From a virus, in the IMG/VR virus record IMGVR_UViG_3300025815_000121, positions 1 to 22,976 of that record: a stretch of DNA of 22,976 nt, one strand, 5' to 3'. Position 1 is the first letter of the stretch. Every line of letters begins with the position of its first letter. The notes below the pieces were generated by a model that made no database searches, had not been told where the DNA came from, and saw only the letters and a program-made list of their open reading frames with translations. Position numbers and translations under genes: made by a program. This document shows positions 4,090 through 22,976 of the stretch, piece after piece.

Positions 4090-6828
4090 ATGTCTCAAGT
4101 TTTAGATGCAATTAAAAGAATTCGTACTAACAAAATAGGAGATGCCTTAGAAAAATTTGCTGATATAGTTTCTAAGGTAGAGTCTAACAATGAAAATGTA
4201 CGTCAAGAAGGCGGCGGTCCAGGACGAGGCTTTTATCAATATGAGATGCAAGCTGGTTCAAAAAAACCGCAGGGGGCAAAAACTGCGCTTAATAGATATA
4301 AGAGATTTTTAGATCAAAACAGTTTAACTATGCCTGAAAGCTACGCTAGAGAATTAAAAAGCAAAAATTTTGACCCTAACGATCCTGACTTTACAAAACT
4401 CTCTAGAGAACTTCAAACAGAAATATTTTATGCCGATAAGCAAGAAGATCCTGACTTTAAATTAGCAGATCTTGCAAGTGGCACTTTATCGTATCAAAAC
4501 GCTTGGCTTGACCATCATTGGAAAGGGCCAGATAAAGACAGAGAAGCTAGAATAAAACATTACAACAACGAAATACCTCAGCCAAAACCTACACCACCAC
4601 TTCCTGAACCACGGCCTGAACGAAATATGCCACCTCTGCCAGAACCACGGCCACCGCAAGGAAGTGAAAAAGATTTTCCTCCTCAAGCAATAAACCCACC
4701 CCCGAGTTCTTTTCGTTTTGATGAGTCTTCTACTATTGACAGTTTTAATTCAGATCCGTCTATCACGGGGGGTCAAGCCGAAGACAGTCTCGATGCCCAA
4801 ATGGCTGAGGTTATGGGGTCTGATCCTAGTCGATATCGTCCTGTACCTAAAGAAAAGCTTACGGAGGGCGAGTCTTTAAATAGCCGTGAGTTACTAGAAA
4901 GTCCAACTCAACAAGAGGTGGGTCCGGCATATACGGAAGAAGAGTTAGCTAGAGAGGCTTACGTAGATCCAGAAAGCGCCCGTCGTCAGCAGGAATTTGA
5001 AGAAGGTACAGGTGCGTTTGCTTCAGAAAGTACCGGTGATCAAACTATCGGTGATATGCTTCGTAGCTTCTTTGGCACTAGTGAAGAAGCAGATACATAT
5101 GAAGGACCAACAGGAGAAGCTGATCCAGCTAACTTTGCTGAAGGTGGTCCCGTAGAAAAGGAACTAGAAGTGACAGAGGATGATCTACCAGACCCGCCTC
5201 CTGGTGCAACTCCTGAAGAAGTAGCGGATGATATTCCTGCGTATCTTTCAACCGGCGAGTATGTTCTTCCGGCTAACGTAGTTAGGTATTACGGATTAGC
5301 TAAGATTAAAGACTTACATCAAAACGCCCTATTTGAATTACAGCAGATGGAAGATCTCGGGATGATTCAAAACGTGGATCATAACGGTGAAGAAGAAGAC
5401 GATGACGATGAGATGACTTTTATTCAAGAACCAAAAACACTCCTTGTTATTGAGTCTTCAAAAGGTTTGATGCGTCCTATGCACTTTAATGAGGGTGGTA
5501 ACCCTAATGAACCTGGGGAGGGGGAACCCGCTTCATCGCCACCGAGTGAAACTCAAGGCTCCGCAGATCAAGGATCAGATCCAGCAGAAACTGGGACAGC
5601 ACAGGCAGAAGAGCAAGCAGAGGCGGATATAGCTGCGGCAAATCTTGAGAAGGAATCTACAGAAGACGCACTAGGTTTGTTCGGTACCGGTCTTACCGCT
5701 GAAGATATGGCAATGAACACAACGCCGGGTCGAGCTTTAGCGGCAATTGGCGCTATTGCCGGGGCCCTTACAGATACTTTTCAAGGACTCGAAAAGGAAG
5801 GTGTTACTGTTGATTTTCCTGGAGAAGATGACTACAGTGGATTTGGGAAAGGCACAGACATCGGAGGTGACGACGGTTCTAGAGGTGGTGGTGGAGATGA
5901 CCCAAACATATCTATGGCAGATCTAACTCCAGAAACTCCTAGGATTAGAACTTCTGTCCGGCGATTTATACCTGGAGTTGGTATTATTGATACCGCTCCT
6001 AAAAGAGGTATTATGAGGGCCTCTAACGGCGGCATGGCTTACGTACCAGGGGTAGGATTACTAGGGACCGGTCAAAAAAACACGTTTGGCGAAGATCAAT
6101 CAGATTTGTTTAACTTTAAAGATTTTGTGTTATCTGGAAGTTTTGATAATTTGTATTCTATGTTTATTGACTCTCCCGAGGGATACTCCCCTGACGAATT
6201 TAGAAAGTGGGAAGAAAAGACAGAACAGAGATACAATAAGAATCCTAGGCTTACCGGAAAAAGTCTGAACCAAAGAAGAACTCTTGCGCGAGAAATTGTT
6301 CCTTTCGGCGCTAATTTAGATGGAAGTGCGGGGAGTCATAACGAAATATCTAGAGACAAAGAACTTTGGGCGATTCTTTCACAATATGGCATGGGCGGCG
6401 ATCAAGGAGAACTACTAAAGAATTACAATGAGGGTTATAATATGATTGATCTGAATGGTTCTCCAGCGACAAACGAGTTTCTTAAAGCAAAACTCGACAC
6501 ATTAGCCTCAACTCGTAGAATTAAACGGGAAGGAATATCATCATCTGATATCCCGGAAGGTTCTACAAACTATGACGTTATTCGTAGTTTATATGCTCCT
6601 CAAGTGTCATTATCAGAAACGGAAGGTCCAGAAAATAGGTTTTATCCTGATAATTTAGATATACTGAGCGACCCCGAAGGGTTTAAGCGGCAATTCGGTT
6701 CTGATTTAACCGGACCTGCCGATGTAGATATTGTTAATAGATTTATAGGTGCATCGCCAAAAAGTAACAATGGTATTATGTCTGCCTCACCCAAAAATAC
6801 CTTTATACCGGGGGTTGGCCTAGTTTAA
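4090..6828 (+). CDS. Composite virion protein with lysozyme-like N terminus
   Basis: A 912-residue multi-domain protein with a good Shine-Dalgarno sequence (AGGGG) before its ATG. Residues about 20-150 look like a lysozyme or lytic transglycosylase fold: a Glu-Ser pair (E31-S32), then GGGPGRGFYQYE (41-52) resembling the G-x-x-Q part of soluble lytic transglycosylases, and WLDHHWKG at 139-146. A Pro-rich linker follows (about 155-205), then acidic low-complexity sequence. A compact module contains DDIPAYLSTGEYVLPANVVRYYG (380-402, quoted here as its two halves DDIPAYLSTGEY and VLPANVVRYYG), a signature I have met in phage structural proteins. After more acidic linker comes an Ala/Gly-rich helix (around GRALAAIGAIAGAL), three PGVG motifs (628-631, 653-656, 907-910) and a C-terminal globular region. 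The likely role is a virion-associated cell-wall enzyme with assembly or ejection function. The fold assignment is inference; the presence of the gene is certain. Confidence 0.65.
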   Translation: MSQVLDAIKRIRTNKIGDALEKFADIVSKVESNNENVRQEGGGPGRGFYQYEMQAGSKKPQGAKTALNRYKRFLDQNSLTMPESYARELKSKNFDPNDPDFTKLSRELQTEIFYADKQEDPDFKLADLASGTLSYQNAWLDHHWKGPDKDREARIKHYNNEIPQPKPTPPLPEPRPERNMPPLPEPRPPQGSEKDFPPQAINPPPSSFRFDESSTIDSFNSDPSITGGQAEDSLDAQMAEVMGSDPSRYRPVPKEKLTEGESLNSRELLESPTQQEVGPAYTEEELAREAYVDPESARRQQEFEEGTGAFASESTGDQTIGDMLRSFFGTSEEADTYEGPTGEADPANFAEGGPVEKELEVTEDDLPDPPPGATPEEVADDIPAYLSTGEYVLPANVVRYYGLAKIKDLHQNALFELQQMEDLGMIQNVDHNGEEEDDDDEMTFIQEPKTLLVIESSKGLMRPMHFNEGGNPNEPGEGEPASSPPSETQGSADQGSDPAETGTAQAEEQAEADIAAANLEKESTEDALGLFGTGLTAEDMAMNTTPGRALAAIGAIAGALTDTFQGLEKEGVTVDFPGEDDYSGFGKGTDIGGDDGSRGGGGDDPNISMADLTPETPRIRTSVRRFIPGVGIIDTAPKRGIMRASNGGMAYVPGVGLLGTGQKNTFGEDQSDLFNFKDFVLSGSFDNLYSMFIDSPEGYSPDEFRKWEEKTEQRYNKNPRLTGKSLNQRRTLAREIVPFGANLDGSAGSHNEISRDKELWAILSQYGMGGDQGELLKNYNEGYNMIDLNGSPATNEFLKAKLDTLASTRRIKREGISSSDIPEGSTNYDVIRSLYAPQVSLSETEGPENRFYPDNLDILSDPEGFKRQFGSDLTGPADVDIVNRFIGASPKSNNGIMSASPKNTFIPGVGLV

Positions 6829-6903: not shown

Positions 6904-7734
6904 ATGCAAGCTCAAGCAGTAGAAAACACACCTAAAGTTTCAATGATGAAGTACAAAAATAATTCATCGATTGAAGAAGAAGAAAAGGAAATTGAACGCC
7001 TAGAAGCAGAACGCGCAGGAAATACTGAAGAAGCTGAACAAGAACCAGAAGAATTAAATCCTGAAGAGGAGACGTTTAAGAAACGCTATGGCGATCTTAG
7101 GCGACATATGCAAAGCAAAGAATCTCAGTATGTAGAAGAAATCAGCAAGTTAAAAAGTCAATTAGAAAGCGTTACTAAGCGACAGGTAAAACTGCCTAAG
7201 AGCGACGAAGAGCTAGAACAGTGGGCTGAAAAATATCCAGACGTAGCTAAGATTGTAGAAACAATCGCTACTAAGAAAGCAATTGAAGCACGAAAAGACG
7301 TAGAAGAAAAATTAGCTGCTGTTGATAAGATGCAGCACGAAGTGAAAGTTAAAGAAGCAGAGTCAGAGTTAGCTAGGTTTCACCCTGACTACAGTGAATT
7401 ACGTGCAGATGCAGACTTCCACGCATGGGTAGATGTACAACCTAAGTGGATTCAGGATGCTCTATACGAAAATGAAACTGACTTCTTAGCAGCGTCAAAG
7501 GCAATTGATCTCTATAAACTAGAGACAAAGCCAAAGCCTACTACAAAAGATGCAGCTAAGAGTGTTGGACGGCCACGACGTTCGCAAGAACCTACACTAG
7601 AGACTAAAGCAAAGTGGTCCGAGTCAGCAGTTAAAAAGCTTTCGGGTAAGGATTACGAGCGGTTTGAAAATGAAATCATGGAAGCTATTCGTACAGGCAA
7701 CTTCGAATACGATATTTCTGGTGGTGCTCGGTAA
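6904..7734 (+). CDS. Capsid scaffolding protein
   Basis: This is the probable internal scaffold that directs shell assembly and is lost before or during packaging. It is 276 residues long, very rich in Glu and Lys, and mostly predicted helix and coiled coil (about 20-150), with the segment EETFKKRYGDLRRHMQ at about 54-70 that I associate with scaffold proteins of marine phages. A more ordered region around FHPDYSELRADADFHAWV sits at about 160-180. The C terminus is short and partly basic. It stands immediately before the major capsid gene, the classic location. A purine-rich GAGAGAGAGT leader serves as its ribosome-binding region. No protease gene is visible nearby, so scaffold release may not need cleavage. 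Assigned by composition and position rather than by a catalytic motif. Confidence 0.78.
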   Translation: MQAQAVENTPKVSMMKYKNNSSIEEEEKEIERLEAERAGNTEEAEQEPEELNPEEETFKKRYGDLRRHMQSKESQYVEEISKLKSQLESVTKRQVKLPKSDEELEQWAEKYPDVAKIVETIATKKAIEARKDVEEKLAAVDKMQHEVKVKEAESELARFHPDYSELRADADFHAWVDVQPKWIQDALYENETDFLAASKAIDLYKLETKPKPTTKDAAKSVGRPRRSQEPTLETKAKWSESAVKKLSGKDYERFENEIMEAIRTGNFEYDISGGAR

Positions 7735-18531: not shown

Positions 18532-19566
18532 ATGGCTCAAGAATTAACACCAGCGGAACGTGCTCAGTATCAACAAGCCATCAGAAATACTCTAGGGTAT
18601 ACCGCCCCTTTTGGTGGAGGTGCATACGGTCAGTTCGTTCAAACCTTAAATCCAAATCAGCGAGCAGTTGCAGAAGAATTAGAGCGGCAATATGTTACAG
18701 AAAGAACGGCGTATCAACCGGTAAATCAGATTGACTACAGCCAACTCGCTAGTCAAATACCTCAAATTGATTACAGTCAAATCAGCGGTCTAATGGCTCC
18801 TACTGAACAGGCTGCTCAAGAGACACAGGCTGCTATTGGAACGGCTGCTGCTGGTCAGGCTCCTACTTTATTTGGTGGTCAGGCAGGACTAATGTCTGGT
18901 CAACAGGCTCTAGGTGCTCAAGTTGATGAAGCTCAACAGCTTTTACAAACCGGTCAGATGGGTTTAGGTGAAGGACAGCAAGCATTGGGAGCAGGACAAC
19001 AGGCTCTAGGTGCAGGGCAGCAAGCATTAGGTACTCAAGTAGGTGGGGTACAACAGGCTGTTGGTCAAGCTGCTACAGGTACAGCCCCAGCAACAGGACT
19101 CTACGCAGGACAATCTGGACTGATGGCTGCTCAAGAACGTCTAGGACAAGACGTGGGTCGTCAGATCAGTGGTGTACGAGCTGGTGTATCTGATTTTCAA
19201 AGGGCAGTTGAAGCATACCAGCGGGGTGCTCAAGCTCAACGTGCAAACATTCAGTCATCGGGAGTAACAGGTCGAGAGCAATTACAACGTCAGTTAGGTG
19301 ATGTCGGAATTCAAGCTAATCGTGCTGCTGAACAAATGGCTCAGATTCGGCAATCCGCTGCTACACCTGTAGGAGCCGCTCAGATCGCTTCTGGTGCCGT
19401 TCCTGGCGGAGTGCAGCAACAGGCTGCTCAGATTGCTCAAGCTGCTCCAGCACCCTCTCAGGCGGCTCCTACTGGCCCTCTAGGCCCGGTATCCGTTGAC
19501 CCTCGTGATGTTCTTATACAACAATTAATCTCTAGCTATCAGGGCTTACTAAGTCCACAACAGTAA
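18532..19566 (+). CDS. Gln/Ala-rich probable internal (ejection) protein, 344 aa
   Basis: A 344-residue protein with very high Gln, Ala and Gly content, started by AAGGA. After an ordered N terminus (about 1-60) and two copies of IDYSQ(L/I) near 60-80, it has a run of 7-residue repeats, G-(E/A)-G-Q-Q-A-L (codons 18970-19032), then helical Gln-rich sequence, and an ordered end (DPRDVLIQQLISSYQGLL). Three SGLM/AGLM tripeptide-type motifs occur in it. No enzymatic motif is visible. It precedes a second Gln/Asn-rich protein, an arrangement typical of podovirus internal virion proteins ejected into the host envelope. The assignment rests on composition and context. Confidence 0.72.
   Translation: MAQELTPAERAQYQQAIRNTLGYTAPFGGGAYGQFVQTLNPNQRAVAEELERQYVTERTAYQPVNQIDYSQLASQIPQIDYSQISGLMAPTEQAAQETQAAIGTAAAGQAPTLFGGQAGLMSGQQALGAQVDEAQQLLQTGQMGLGEGQQALGAGQQALGAGQQALGTQVGGVQQAVGQAATGTAPATGLYAGQSGLMAAQERLGQDVGRQISGVRAGVSDFQRAVEAYQRGAQAQRANIQSSGVTGREQLQRQLGDVGIQANRAAEQMAQIRQSAATPVGAAQIASGAVPGGVQQQAAQIAQAAPAPSQAAPTGPLGPVSVDPRDVLIQQLISSYQGLLSPQQ
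18970..19032 (+). repeat. Three tandem 21-bp units encoding a 7-residue repeat
   Basis: Units at 18970-18990, 18991-19011 and 19012-19032 encode (E/A)GQQALG three times. Synonymous sites differ between copies (CAGCAAGCATTG, CAACAGGCTCTA, CAGCAAGCATTA), so the peptide is conserved although the DNA has diverged. A related copy (GQQALG) lies about 20 codons upstream. Confidence 0.9.
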
Positions 19567-19576
19567 GGTTATAAAA

Positions 19577-21172
19577 ATGGTAACACAACCACTGTCAACT
19601 CTCCCAACATTACAACCTGCTCCTGAAGATGAGCGGCGTACTACTGCAATCGCTGAACTGGATAAGTACATCGGTGACGAAGGAACTATTCGTCCTGATC
19701 TACTAGGTGGTTTATTACCAAAAGATTTAGATATTGAGGAATTAAAGAAAACCGGTAAAACAGATGATATCGTAACTGTTGCTAAGACGTTACAAGATAG
19801 GGATGTTGCACGTAACCTCGATCAGATCTACGGTGATTATGAAGGTTATAGAGGTATCTTCGGTCAAGGTGGATATGGACGATTTCTAGGCGCTAAAGGA
19901 GAGAAAAAGGGCTATGTAGATCCTTACGGACAGTTAACCGCAATAGGTAAACAGGCTGAGTTAGCCGAGACTCCAGAATTACCTACGGGTACGGAACTAC
20001 AGTTACAAAGGTTAACTCCTTCGGCTGATGAGTTTCTAGATGCAGATAAGTATAAAGTAACTCCTACTGCTTTTAATGTTGAAGCTGCTCAAGCAGAGAT
20101 TGCTCAAGCCGCTGATCCAAATAAGACCTTAGCTCAATCGTATGGTGCTCAACAAGCCTTTGAGCGGGTAGCGAAACAACAGATACAGGCTGCTCGTCAG
20201 GAAGGGCTAACTGATTACGTAGAACCCGCACAAGGTGAGGTAGATGTTAAGTCTACTGTACAGGGTCAGTTAGCTAGCCTAATGCAGCAATTTGAAGGTG
20301 GGCAGATTCCAGCTTTTGCTGCTGGTGCTATTCGTACTGCTGAACAACGTCTAGCTGCTCGTGGTTTAGGTGCCTCATCCATGGCTGGTGCTGCCATTAC
20401 TCAAGCTGCTATGGAAGCTTCTACTCCTATCGCTGCTGCTGATGCCGAGACGTATCGTCGTATGAATGAGTTAAACCTTAACAATCGTCAACAGGCTGAA
20501 GTTCTTAATGCTCAAATGACCTTGCAAATGGATTTGCAGAACCTATCTAATGAACAACAGGCTCGTGTAACTAATACACAAAATAGGGTTCAGGCATTGT
20601 TTACTGATCAGGCTGCAACGAATAGTGCTCGGCAGTTTAACGCTCAGTCTGAACAGCAGAATGATCAATTCTTTGCCAATTTATTTAATCAGACCGCTCA
20701 GTTTAACGCGGCTCAAACTAATGCTATTAACCAGTTTAACGCAGGACAGGCTAATACTATCAGTCGATTCAATTCAGAGTTAGCTAACCAACGAGATCAG
20801 TTCAATACACGAAACCGTATTCTTATTGATCAGGCTAACGCCGTGTACCGTAGGCAAATTAACACAGCGAATACAGCTATAGCTAATGCAGAGAATGAAT
20901 ATAACGTCCGTAACTTATTTAACATCAGTCAGCTTGCACAGGCTAATGTTTTACAAGATGCTAGAGATAAAGTAAACTTTGCTAGAGTGAATAGCTTGAA
21001 TGAGCAACAGTATCAATATGAGTTAGCTTTACAATCTTTTGCTGCGGATAAAAACCTTGAAAATACTCAGACTATTGCTTCAGGCCAGATAGTCGGTAAT
21101 GTGTTAGCTTCTGCCGCAGATGCGATCTTTACCAGCGTAGGATCGACAAACACCAACAAAAAGGAAGAGTAA
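19577..21172 (+). CDS. Asn/Gln-rich internal virion protein with 11-residue repeats, 531 aa
   Basis: A 531-residue protein, ribosome-binding site AAGG. The N-terminal half (about 1-215) is mixed and charged with Tyr/Gly-rich stretches (DGY-type: GDYEGYRGIFGQGGYGRF near 87-104). Residues about 220-290 are Ala-rich helix. From codon 20468 to 20929 there are 14 gapless units of 11 residues, with Asn at the third position in 12 of 14, for example QFNAAQTNAIN, QFNAGQANTIS and QFNTRNRILID. An 11-residue period is the signature of hendecad coiled coils, so a long right-handed helical bundle is expected. The role is most likely an ejected core protein forming a conduit with its neighbours. I recognise the composition from marine phages but not a named family. 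Confidence 0.78.
   Translation: MVTQPLSTLPTLQPAPEDERRTTAIAELDKYIGDEGTIRPDLLGGLLPKDLDIEELKKTGKTDDIVTVAKTLQDRDVARNLDQIYGDYEGYRGIFGQGGYGRFLGAKGEKKGYVDPYGQLTAIGKQAELAETPELPTGTELQLQRLTPSADEFLDADKYKVTPTAFNVEAAQAEIAQAADPNKTLAQSYGAQQAFERVAKQQIQAARQEGLTDYVEPAQGEVDVKSTVQGQLASLMQQFEGGQIPAFAAGAIRTAEQRLAARGLGASSMAGAAITQAAMEASTPIAAADAETYRRMNELNLNNRQQAEVLNAQMTLQMDLQNLSNEQQARVTNTQNRVQALFTDQAATNSARQFNAQSEQQNDQFFANLFNQTAQFNAAQTNAINQFNAGQANTISRFNSELANQRDQFNTRNRILIDQANAVYRRQINTANTAIANAENEYNVRNLFNISQLAQANVLQDARDKVNFARVNSLNEQQYQYELALQSFAADKNLENTQTIASGQIVGNVLASAADAIFTSVGSTNTNKKEE
20468..20929 (+). repeat. Fourteen gapless 33-bp / 11-residue repeat units
   Basis: Reading in register from E at 20468 gives 14 consecutive 11-mers; position 3 is Asn in 12, Asp in one and Phe in one. 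Units with QF at positions 1-2 are most alike (from 20633 onward), and outer units are more diverged but keep the register. No insertion or deletion breaks the period. Confidence 0.9.
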
Positions 21173-21175
21173 ACC

Positions 21176-21457
21176 ATGGAAATTTTTTCAGCGATTGCTT
21201 CAGCAGTAGTTACAACCGGTATTAAATCTTTTTTTGGTAGCTCGAAGAACACACCAAAGGTGGCTCAACTGAGTCCAAAACGAATCTCTAGTAATCTCAG
21301 GGTTCCAAGTATTGAAGCGGGCGATCCACCAGTTGCAGCACAAGCAGGATCTACTACGGCAATCGCTACTTTAATCAACCGACACGAAGCCATTATGGAT
21401 TCAATTGATGTATCTAAAGGTGTTGGTTTTAGCGCCGAAACCACTCGAATCGCGTAA
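21176..21457 (+). CDS. Small probable core/ejection protein (93 aa)
   Basis: 93 residues with a strong AAGGAAG ribosome-binding site, three bases after the previous stop. The N terminus (MEIFSAIASAVVTTGIKSFF) is a short hydrophobic or amphipathic helix, as in small inner-core proteins of podoviruses; the rest is polar and Ser/Ala-rich with a basic stretch (SPKRISSNLRVP). Part of the ejection block by position. No recognised family. Confidence 0.75.
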   Translation: MEIFSAIASAVVTTGIKSFFGSSKNTPKVAQLSPKRISSNLRVPSIEAGDPPVAAQAGSTTAIATLINRHEAIMDSIDVSKGVGFSAETTRIA

Positions 21458-21466
21458 GGATATATT

Positions 21467-21955
21467 ATGGCAGAAGATGCAACAAGTTTTTTTGATGGGG
21501 CTATTCCGGGTTCGTCCTTAACAGGTAATCTAGGTTCTGAAATCCATGAAAACCCACCTATTTATACTGATCCAACAGAAGCATATGATTACGTCGTATC
21601 TGGATTAATGAGTGATGATGGAGCAGAACGTATTTCTATTGCCGCTCAACTAGGTGTACCTGCTGAACTCATTGCTAGGTCGATTGTGTTTAGCGGTTGG
21701 GCGCAAGGTTACTATACAATCGACATTATGTTGCTTATCTTCGGCCCAGTATTCGAGGTTATTATGAAGCTGCTAGATAGCGCAGGTATTGAATACGAAA
21801 AACTCGCTATTCGTAAGAGTGATGATCGCTTAGAGAAAGCCTTCGAAGAACTAGAGAAGCGCAGTGAAAGCGAAGAACCGGAGGTAGAACCAGAACCTCA
21901 AGAGGAAGAGGAAGAGGAAGTACCTTCCACAGGACTGATGGGTAGGAGAGACTAA
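21467..21955 (+). CDS. Membrane-active-looking virion protein (162 aa)
   Basis: 162 residues, ribosome-binding site AAGGA. The N-terminal third is polar. The middle has helical repeats (ERISIAAQLGVPAELIARSI) and a strongly hydrophobic helix (YTIDIMLLIFGPVFEVIMKLL, about 88-108). The C terminus has a run of glutamates and ends TGLMGRRD. The last base overlaps the next ATG. A hydrophobic helix followed by an acidic tail in the ejection block suggests a protein that enters the host membrane during DNA entry; this is inference from features and position. Confidence 0.75.
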   Translation: MAEDATSFFDGAIPGSSLTGNLGSEIHENPPIYTDPTEAYDYVVSGLMSDDGAERISIAAQLGVPAELIARSIVFSGWAQGYYTIDIMLLIFGPVFEVIMKLLDSAGIEYEKLAIRKSDDRLEKAFEELEKRSESEEPEVEPEPQEEEEEEVPSTGLMGRRD

Positions 21956-22976
21956 TGGGTTTCTTTAACGCTGCATTTAGGTTAGGTAATAAAGCTGCAT
22001 TTAGGTTAGGTGTTGTACAAGGTTTTCAAAACCGTCAGGAAGAGATTGCCAAAGAACAAGAAAAGCTTCTAGAAGAAGATAAAAAACTTGCTAGAAAAGC
22101 GTCTGCTACTATGGCGAGCGTCGTGGATAAACGTAAGAGACTACGGCAAAATAGAGAAAACATATTTGCTATTATAAAAGGTGTTGCTCCTGAAGGTGCT
22201 GATAACGAAGCAATTAAAAATCTACTTAAGCAGAAGGAAAACACAGATGGTAGCCCTATAAATGAAAATACGGCAAGAAGATTATTAGAAAGCATGACGG
22301 CAGACCAGATCAATGCTTTTACACCAGCCGAGGAACCTGCTATAGAAAGTCCGCCTGAGACTGAAGAAGAAGAAAGTGGGCCAGGATTTTTAGCCTCTGT
22401 ATTTAGTCCTTCCGCTCGTGCCGCCGCACAACGCGAGAAAATTCTCAAAAAACCCGCCGGAGCTAGTGACGCGGAATGGAAAGCCGCACTCGCGGAACAA
22501 GATATTCCTGTTTATGAAAAACCTACTCAACCTGTGCGCTCTTTTAGCTACACAACTGGTGCAGATCGAAATTATATAAAAGATACTATGACACGGAAAA
22601 TCGAAAAAACGGGGGACATTGCTGGGTCAACTGATGAGACCCGACTTGAAAATTTATGGACTGATATCGGGACTTGGATGACCGGTGGGACCGTTTATGA
22701 TACATATTACCGTAAAAATGTAGACAGACTTGTAGCGGATGTAGATGACCTAGATGCCTTCTTAAAGAATAGGAAGGGATCTGATAGACTAACCCCTAAA
22801 GAAATAGAGAAGATTAAAAAGATAGGCATTCAAGAATTCTTGAAGGATGCCGATGAGGATGCAGATCCTGCTGCTACTCCTGCTGCTACTCCTGCTGCTA
22901 CTCCTGCTGCTACTCCTGCTGCTACTCCTGGTCAGGTCAGGAGAGGAACTCCCGTAACCCCGAAGTCTCCATACAA
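21955..22976 (+). CDS. Repeat-bearing virion protein, 3' end outside window
   Basis: The frame is open from the ATG overlapping the previous stop (taATG) to the right edge, giving at least 340 residues. The N terminus carries an exact DNA duplication encoding AAFRLG twice. A Lys/Glu-rich helix follows (about 30-75), then a segment like FTPAEEPAIESPPETEEEES, a more ordered region with WTDIGTWMTGGTVYDTYYRK around 240-260, and a perfect tandem repeat encoding PAAT five times near the right end. No catalytic motif is visible in the part present. Co-directional and overlapping with the ejection genes, it is likely the next internal virion protein, or the start of a large one. Confidence 0.85.
   Translation, partial: MGFFNAAFRLGNKAAFRLGVVQGFQNRQEEIAKEQEKLLEEDKKLARKASATMASVVDKRKRLRQNRENIFAIIKGVAPEGADNEAIKNLLKQKENTDGSPINENTARRLLESMTADQINAFTPAEEPAIESPPETEEEESGPGFLASVFSPSARAAAQREKILKKPAGASDAEWKAALAEQDIPVYEKPTQPVRSFSYTTGADRNYIKDTMTRKIEKTGDIAGSTDETRLENLWTDIGTWMTGGTVYDTYYRKNVDRLVADVDDLDAFLKNRKGSDRLTPKEIEKIKKIGIQEFLKDADEDADPAATPAATPAATPAATPAATPGQVRRGTPVTPKSPY
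21970..22011 (+). repeat. 18-bp direct repeat in the N terminus of the last gene
   Basis: GCTGCATTTAGGTTAGGT occurs at 21970-21987 and again at 21994-22011, in frame, separated by six bases. Identity is complete, so the duplication is recent or maintained; it doubles the peptide AAFRLG. Confidence 0.92.
22867..22926 (+). repeat. Five perfect 12-bp tandem repeats (PAAT x5)
   Basis: CCTGCTGCTACT is repeated five times without a mismatch (22867-22878 and each 12 bases to 22926), encoding Pro-Ala-Ala-Thr five times. Perfect identity at synonymous sites indicates recent slippage expansion. Because the unit is a multiple of three, changes in copy number alter linker length without breaking the frame. 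Confidence 0.95.

Follow-up and report, generated by a model that had tools for sequence, protein, structure and literature searches.

HMO-2011-like phages occur widely in the ocean, and their structural cassette is annotated almost entirely as 'hypothetical protein'. One of its proteins is now defined by a quantised array of asparagine-bearing 11-residue units, an Asn-hendecad array. It is encoded in a virus record of 22,976 bases, the whole of which is called the window below. Direct relatives of the window protein, which has 14 units, are phage1322_25 of Puniceispirillum phage HMO-2011, with 22 units, and CHOED_013 of Vibrio phage CHOED, with 17 units and described in GenBank as similar to phage1322_25; both are annotated as hypothetical only. 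The best isolate relatives also come from Roseobacter CRP, Pelagibacter HTVC, Aeromonas MQM1 and Rhizobium phages, and all are hypothetical except one 'huntingtin' record and one without a gene at that place. The 'huntingtin' label in GenBank (MW202701.1, L049:7921-10512) is probably an annotation artefact due to low-complexity sequence. At least 547 IMG/VR stretches encode relatives, as do 27 phage records and some prophages. Searched against Pfam and PHROGs at E<=0.001, the window protein itself fell into no family. Neither a published description of the 11-residue Asn repeat nor virion proteomics for any member of the group was found in the open-licence literature.

The proteins gp20-gp24 of phage SU10 are present in virions and absent once the genome has been released (PMC9509320). 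Their five genes stand in the place of the window cassette, before a strand switch. Like the gene in the window, SU10/phiEco32 gp21 and gp22 (phrog_4287, DNA ejection) lie in a late operon, 5' of a gene for more than 1000 residues and a strand switch, in a genome with a portal of the same family (PF23899). Like the window protein, they have a Gln/Asn-rich middle and a Gly-rich hydrophobic C-terminus. They differ in lacking a hendecad array, and SU10 has two copies and a separate transglycosylase, gp20. The T7 gp14/P22 gp7 class (outer-membrane pore) is likewise encoded early in a cassette ending with a very large protein, and its members are helical with a hydrophobic segment, as is the window protein. 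However, the window's hydrophobic segment is single, C-terminal and weak, and T7 gp14, the member of the class that was compared, has 196 residues and no repeats. T7 gp14 and DEV gp73/gp72 build channels of helices in the cell envelope (PMC11784390, PMC10925440). The DEV gp73-gp72 ejectosome (Schitoviridae) offers a model of how the window protein might work, since helices of several subunits form a DNA-wide tube across the envelope (PMC10925440); no account of varying unit length was found for it.

Profile comparison by hhalign gave a probability of 0.7% at best against SU10 gp21/gp22 and 0.4% against T7 gp14, and no homology to Grimontviridae injection proteins. Sequence searches among solved structures brought up neither DEV gp73-gp72 nor any other match beyond those judged to be chance. 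Given these null comparisons, we did not file the protein with the gp14 or phrog_4287 families. It probably acts in the manner of a podophage ejection protein while standing outside both. A shared G-x-S-S helical-turn motif was dismissed as a resemblance to the eye only. The features of the locus are listed in Table 1.

Table 1. Features of the array gene and its cassette in the window.
Feature	Position	Strand	Remark
ORF for the 531-aa Asn-hendecad protein	19577..21172	+	Opens the putative ejection cassette
Variable N-terminal part, residues 1-215	19577..20221	+	N-termini differ widely among relatives
Conserved helical module preceding the array, residues 216-297	20222..20467	+	Holds anchor A
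Array of 14 x 11-residue units, residues 298-451	20468..20929	+	Asn-3 in 12/14
N-arm, units 1-4, 22-residue super-repeat (NLxNxQQAxVxNAQ...)	20468..20599	+	
Conserved hinge unit 5 (FTDQAATNSAR)	20600..20632	+	Predicted helix breaks shortly after, residues 351-358
C-arm, units 6-14, QFNAxQxN type	20633..20929	+	Single predicted helix, about residues 359-472
C-terminal tail with Ala/Gly-rich hydrophobic stretch IASGQIVGNVLASAADAIF	20930..21169	+	Kyte-Doolittle mean 1.29
93-aa small protein, second cassette gene	21176..21457	+	Poorly conserved
162-aa acidic protein (PIPGSSLTGNLG...), third cassette gene	21467..21955	+	Partner in 119/119 loci
Start of next cassette gene, at least 340 aa, running beyond the window end	21955..22976	+	Position as the 340-600 aa gene in relatives

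Upstream of the array gene the window encodes a terminase (Pfam04466), an SU10-type portal (PF23899), tail proteins of two podophage families (phrog_10775 and phrog_5107) and a tail fibre. The array gene sits in a late cassette, between the tail, fibre and lysis genes and a very large distal gene. We compared the cassette order of the window, HMO-2011, CHOED, MQM1, phiM6 and CRP-1 with that of SU10. Behind the array gene come, in most cases, a small gene and then, in all, an acidic gene of about 165 residues and a gene for 340-600 residues; in the relatives a gene for about 800 to 1900 residues comes next, often with a strand switch after it. A homologue of the acidic protein was found at most 2.5 kb downstream of the array gene in all 119 loci, and this protein, which carries a PIPGxSLT motif, has no family in Pfam, PHROGs or PDB. 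In CRP-603, a cell-wall hydrolase (PF07486) is encoded directly 3' of the array gene.

The window ends before the large gene, and the 1128-aa protein of HMO-2011 matches no family. A distantly related prophage of Hahella ganghwensis shares the portal family and both tail protein families, and an Asn array can still be recognised in it. Its cassette encodes a 1206-aa protein (L179:6383-10003) with InPase and RadC domains and matches to DarB-like antirestriction, virion RNA polymerase (vRNAP) and virion structural families. DarB/vRNAP similarity, InPase and RadC are traits of proteins injected with phage DNA. The initial annotation had supposed an ejected protein, and the genes around the array gene agree with this, both in the SU10-like position of the cassette and in the large DarB/vRNAP-like protein of Hahella.

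Within the window protein, a confident small domain was predicted at residues ~13-130 (AlphaFold2, pLDDT 71-91). In some members, dockerin-like or EF-hand-like calcium loops (DVNGDGKVDLKDV and similar) lie in the variable N-terminal part, for example L033:323-4081 (protein residues 157-178) and the N-terminal part of the L133 protein. The module that precedes the array is marked by TVQGQL ... RGLGASSMAG ... PIAAADAETYRR. Several relatives have only a weak hydrophobic segment at the C-terminus, or none.

Fourteen gapless units had been read at 20468-20929, and they coincide exactly with residues 298-451, with zero slip. Asn stands at the third position as claimed, except for D in unit 5 and F in unit 7. 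The exact triplet Q-F-N, which had been noted as frequent, occurs in four units, and R-F-N in one. Compared with itself at lag 11, the protein had 41 identical residues, where shuffled sequences lead one to expect 14.8 (z 7.4); z was 6.8 at lag 22 and 7.5 at lag 33. At the DNA level, Tandem Repeats Finder detected no tandem repeat in 20300-21100, even at score 30, and the sole detectable adjacent 33-nt pair in the array (20699/20732) has 73% identity. The DNA repeat is thus nearly decayed, which argues that the pattern is old and maintained at the protein level.

The length of the array in relatives was measured as the distance between PIAxxDA, upstream of the array (anchor A), and [AS]NxxWRR, near its end (the C-anchor). 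The anchors were used as regular expressions and the scored set was limited to members with the exact motifs; a second PIA-like motif is present close to the C-anchor. Both anchors were found in 109 relatives, 47 of them non-redundant (<80% mutual identity), and in 10 more from genome contigs. Relative to the window, the distance in the 109 differed by -44, -22, 0, 11, 22, 33, 44, 77, 88 or 176 residues, and the genome contigs contributed the further classes +99, +110 and +396. No length difference other than a multiple of 11 occurred in either set. In all there are 13 length classes, from -4 to +36 units relative to the window and all 0 mod 11. Thirteen classes imply at least 12 length changes, and the probability that all are multiples of 11 by chance is about (1/11)^12 by simple arithmetic; the statistic counts length classes because the relatives are not independent. 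The initial annotation had called for a survey of unit number: the variation is real, from 10 to 50 units and far beyond what the single sequence could reveal, and no homologue with a broken register was met among the 109 and the 10.

The third position is conserved as well. Among 807 units of the 47 non-redundant relatives, N occupied position 3 in 71%, against 1-31% at the other positions; Gly made up 1.1% and Pro was negligible. Asn-3 is preserved in the distant Hahella and Luteibacter relatives when counted from the same upstream motif. A tblastn search of the phage records with the Hahella protein gave no match. The longest array, of 50 units with Asn-3 in 35, belongs to a 1258-aa member (L170:52-3828) on a contig binned as Sphingobacteriales, which is probably viral.

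The conserved hinge unit divides the array into two arms that behave differently. N-arm units share 25.6% with the unit two places away and 17.1% with the adjacent one, which gives a super-repeat of 22 residues. The unit counts of this arm are 0, 2, 4, 6, 8, 11, 12, 18 and 38, only one of the nine values being odd. In the C-arm, neighbouring units are as similar as any pair and the count varies by single units (6, 7, 9, 10 or 11 up to the WRR unit). The hinge was assigned by script, and by eye in L077 and four missed members. In the arrays of HTVC115P and ctYwJ313, DNA repeats lie mostly at multiples of 66 bp, and the Hahella gene contains a 66-bp tandem array. Units are probably gained through such 66-bp DNA repeats.

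AlphaFold2 predicted long helices at residues 270-350 and 359-472 of the full protein (29 sequences; block pLDDT ~38-72, which is low). For residues 216-531 (82 sequences), most of the second helix, 114 residues at about 359-472, reached pLDDT ~75-86, with a break near 355-358. As pTM was low (0.24-0.31), secondary structure alone is claimed. Both models thus agree with the helical array foreseen by the initial annotation, for which a non-helical prediction would have been adverse, and the results support a long helix kept strictly in hendecad register. A beta-solenoid with an Asn ladder was rejected, as the region is predicted all helix and contains so little Gly and Pro. Fold searches with the full model against BFVD and PDB, and with the fragment model against PDB, gave no match at E<=0.001. 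PDB profile matches to KMP-11 (E 0.03-0.1) and an aminopeptidase (0.37) were judged to be chance.

Like hendecad coiled coils, the array keeps a strict 11-residue register, here over 110-550 residues, in a long predicted helix. Unlike them, its core positions are mostly polar and its defining residue is Asn-3. As to an a/d/e/h hydrophobic seam, an 11/3 wheel showed two weak apolar stripes, one at 1/4/8, stronger in the N-arm, and one at 2/6/10, stronger in the C-arm, so that the stripe moves between the arms. Column permutation, which had only 11 points to work with, found no significant hydrophobicity harmonic and no significant single amphipathic face; the 11/3 moment was 0.063 (p 0.81). Position 3 is flanked by the 2/6/10 stripe on one side and by charged positions, 7 and 11, on the other. 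A ladder of buried Asn lining a channel is therefore not supported in the form proposed. The capsid of MQM1 has a diameter of 70.6 nm (PMC10410586), and 50 units as a straight helix would measure about 82 nm (arithmetic, 1.5 Å per residue). A straight rod inside the virion is thus impossible at least for the 50-unit member, which must bend, fold or stay partly unfolded within the head.

With moderate confidence, we take the protein to be an internal component of the virion that an HMO-2011-like marine podophage ejects, and whose hinged Asn-hendecad helices would form a rod or tube of adjustable length. The products of the cassette, of which the array gene is the first, would exit the head through the short tail before the DNA. 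The array would be a long, weakly amphipathic helix of two arms with the conserved hinge between them. Helices of several subunits may then pair in a fixed 11-residue register, probably by hydrogen bonds of Asn/Gln side chains more than by a hydrophobic core. The paired helices would form a rod or tube that lengthens the tail across the cell envelope, and the C-terminal segment, rich in Gly and Ala, may be fixed in a membrane or span it. Evolution would tune the reach by gain or loss of whole units. The repeat with its strict register and quantised length, the helical prediction, and the cassette with its conserved partner gene are established; that the protein is in the virion, is ejected, oligomerises into a tube and touches a membrane is inferred.

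Other placements of the protein in the virion have to be weighed against this. It might be a component of an exterior tail rod or fibre, a trimeric helical shaft whose folding is assisted in some members by an S74-type chaperone. Peptidase_S74 chaperone domains are typical of trimeric tail fibres, and the CRP-3 and CRP-212 orthologues end in one (L045:2416-4272, protein residues 547-602; L050:2506-4287, 523-579). The array gene also lies downstream of fibre genes, and genes for a tail fibre and for fibre assembly precede the Hahella homologue. We nevertheless consider a fibre unlikely. S74 is missing in most members, the window's included, and S74-like tails, by sequence, also appear to end annotated DNA injection proteins of Grimontviridae. 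The array protein has no fibre family match and is constantly linked to the acidic partner gene. Its variable end is N-terminal and its conserved module C-terminal, the reverse of the usual fibre plan. Matches of CRP-3 and CRP-212 to PHROG 'virion structural' and 'DNA ejection protein' families vanished once the C-terminal S74 was trimmed, and were for that reason rejected as evidence. Alternatively, the protein might stay in the head, where as a scaffold-like element or a rod of the core it would organise portal or DNA, with the array folded on or along other components. A gene within the late structural operon and long helices would suit this, and podophage heads do contain core structures (PMC11784390). 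This reading is nevertheless improbable, since a separate scaffold-like gene (6904-7734, by position and composition only) already lies between portal and capsid, the cassette position is that of the SU10 ejection proteins, and the Hahella cassette ends with a DarB/vRNAP-like protein.

The period of 11 may also be explained without a bundle, or without any structural constraint. A membrane-surface 3-11 helix in the style of alpha-synuclein, perilipin or group 3 LEA, folding on the host membrane, would share the 11-residue period and the neutral Asn/Gln/Thr/Ala-rich composition with few strong hydrophobics, and would suit a protein threaded unfolded through the tail. It would require one continuous apolar face (98 degrees per residue), which the 11/3 harmonic given above does not provide. 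Moreover, the most conserved position is Asn, which a lipid face does not demand, and this reading is very unlikely. The multiples of 11 might instead reflect the mutational mechanism alone, by 66- and 33-bp tandem duplications. The DNA repeats of HTVC115P and ctYwJ313, mostly at multiples of 66 bp, and the Hahella tandem array speak for this. In the window, however, the DNA repeats are decayed, yet Asn-3 and the frame persist in relatives at 40-70% protein identity; small indels are common elsewhere in the protein and, in net effect, absent within the array. We therefore find a mutational origin alone quite improbable.

Under the favoured reading of an ejected rod or tube, the array suggests a testable idea of how short-tailed phages adjust the reach of their ejection apparatus. 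A bolder version, which we regard as unlikely, is that of an ejectosome ruler, a tube closed by an Asn/Gln ladder in place of the usual hydrophobic core, its length changing in steps of 16.5 Å per unit, or of 33 Å per double unit in the N-arm (about one turn of B-DNA). If this were true, phages of different hosts would span different envelopes through unit number. The natural series of 10 to 50 units in a single register would also serve studies on the physics of polar helical assemblies.

Several other repeats and motifs were seen in the window. Immediately upstream of the array gene, ORF 18532-19566 encodes a 344-aa Gln/Ala-rich protein with homologues near many close relatives, and it contains a 21-bp repeat coding GQQALGA (18964-19032). 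In the ORF that leaves the window, a 24-bp duplication at its start (21966-22011, ORF 21955) gives a KAAFRLG-like sequence twice, and a perfect 12-bp tandem repeat of 5.4 copies (22866-22930) encodes Ala-Ala-Thr-Pro. Between the portal and capsid genes, a 912-aa protein (4090-6828) weakly matches a tape-measure family (phrog_3547, E 3e-5); a stretch near its N-terminus looks lysozyme-like by eye, and it has Gly-Gly/PGVG motifs.
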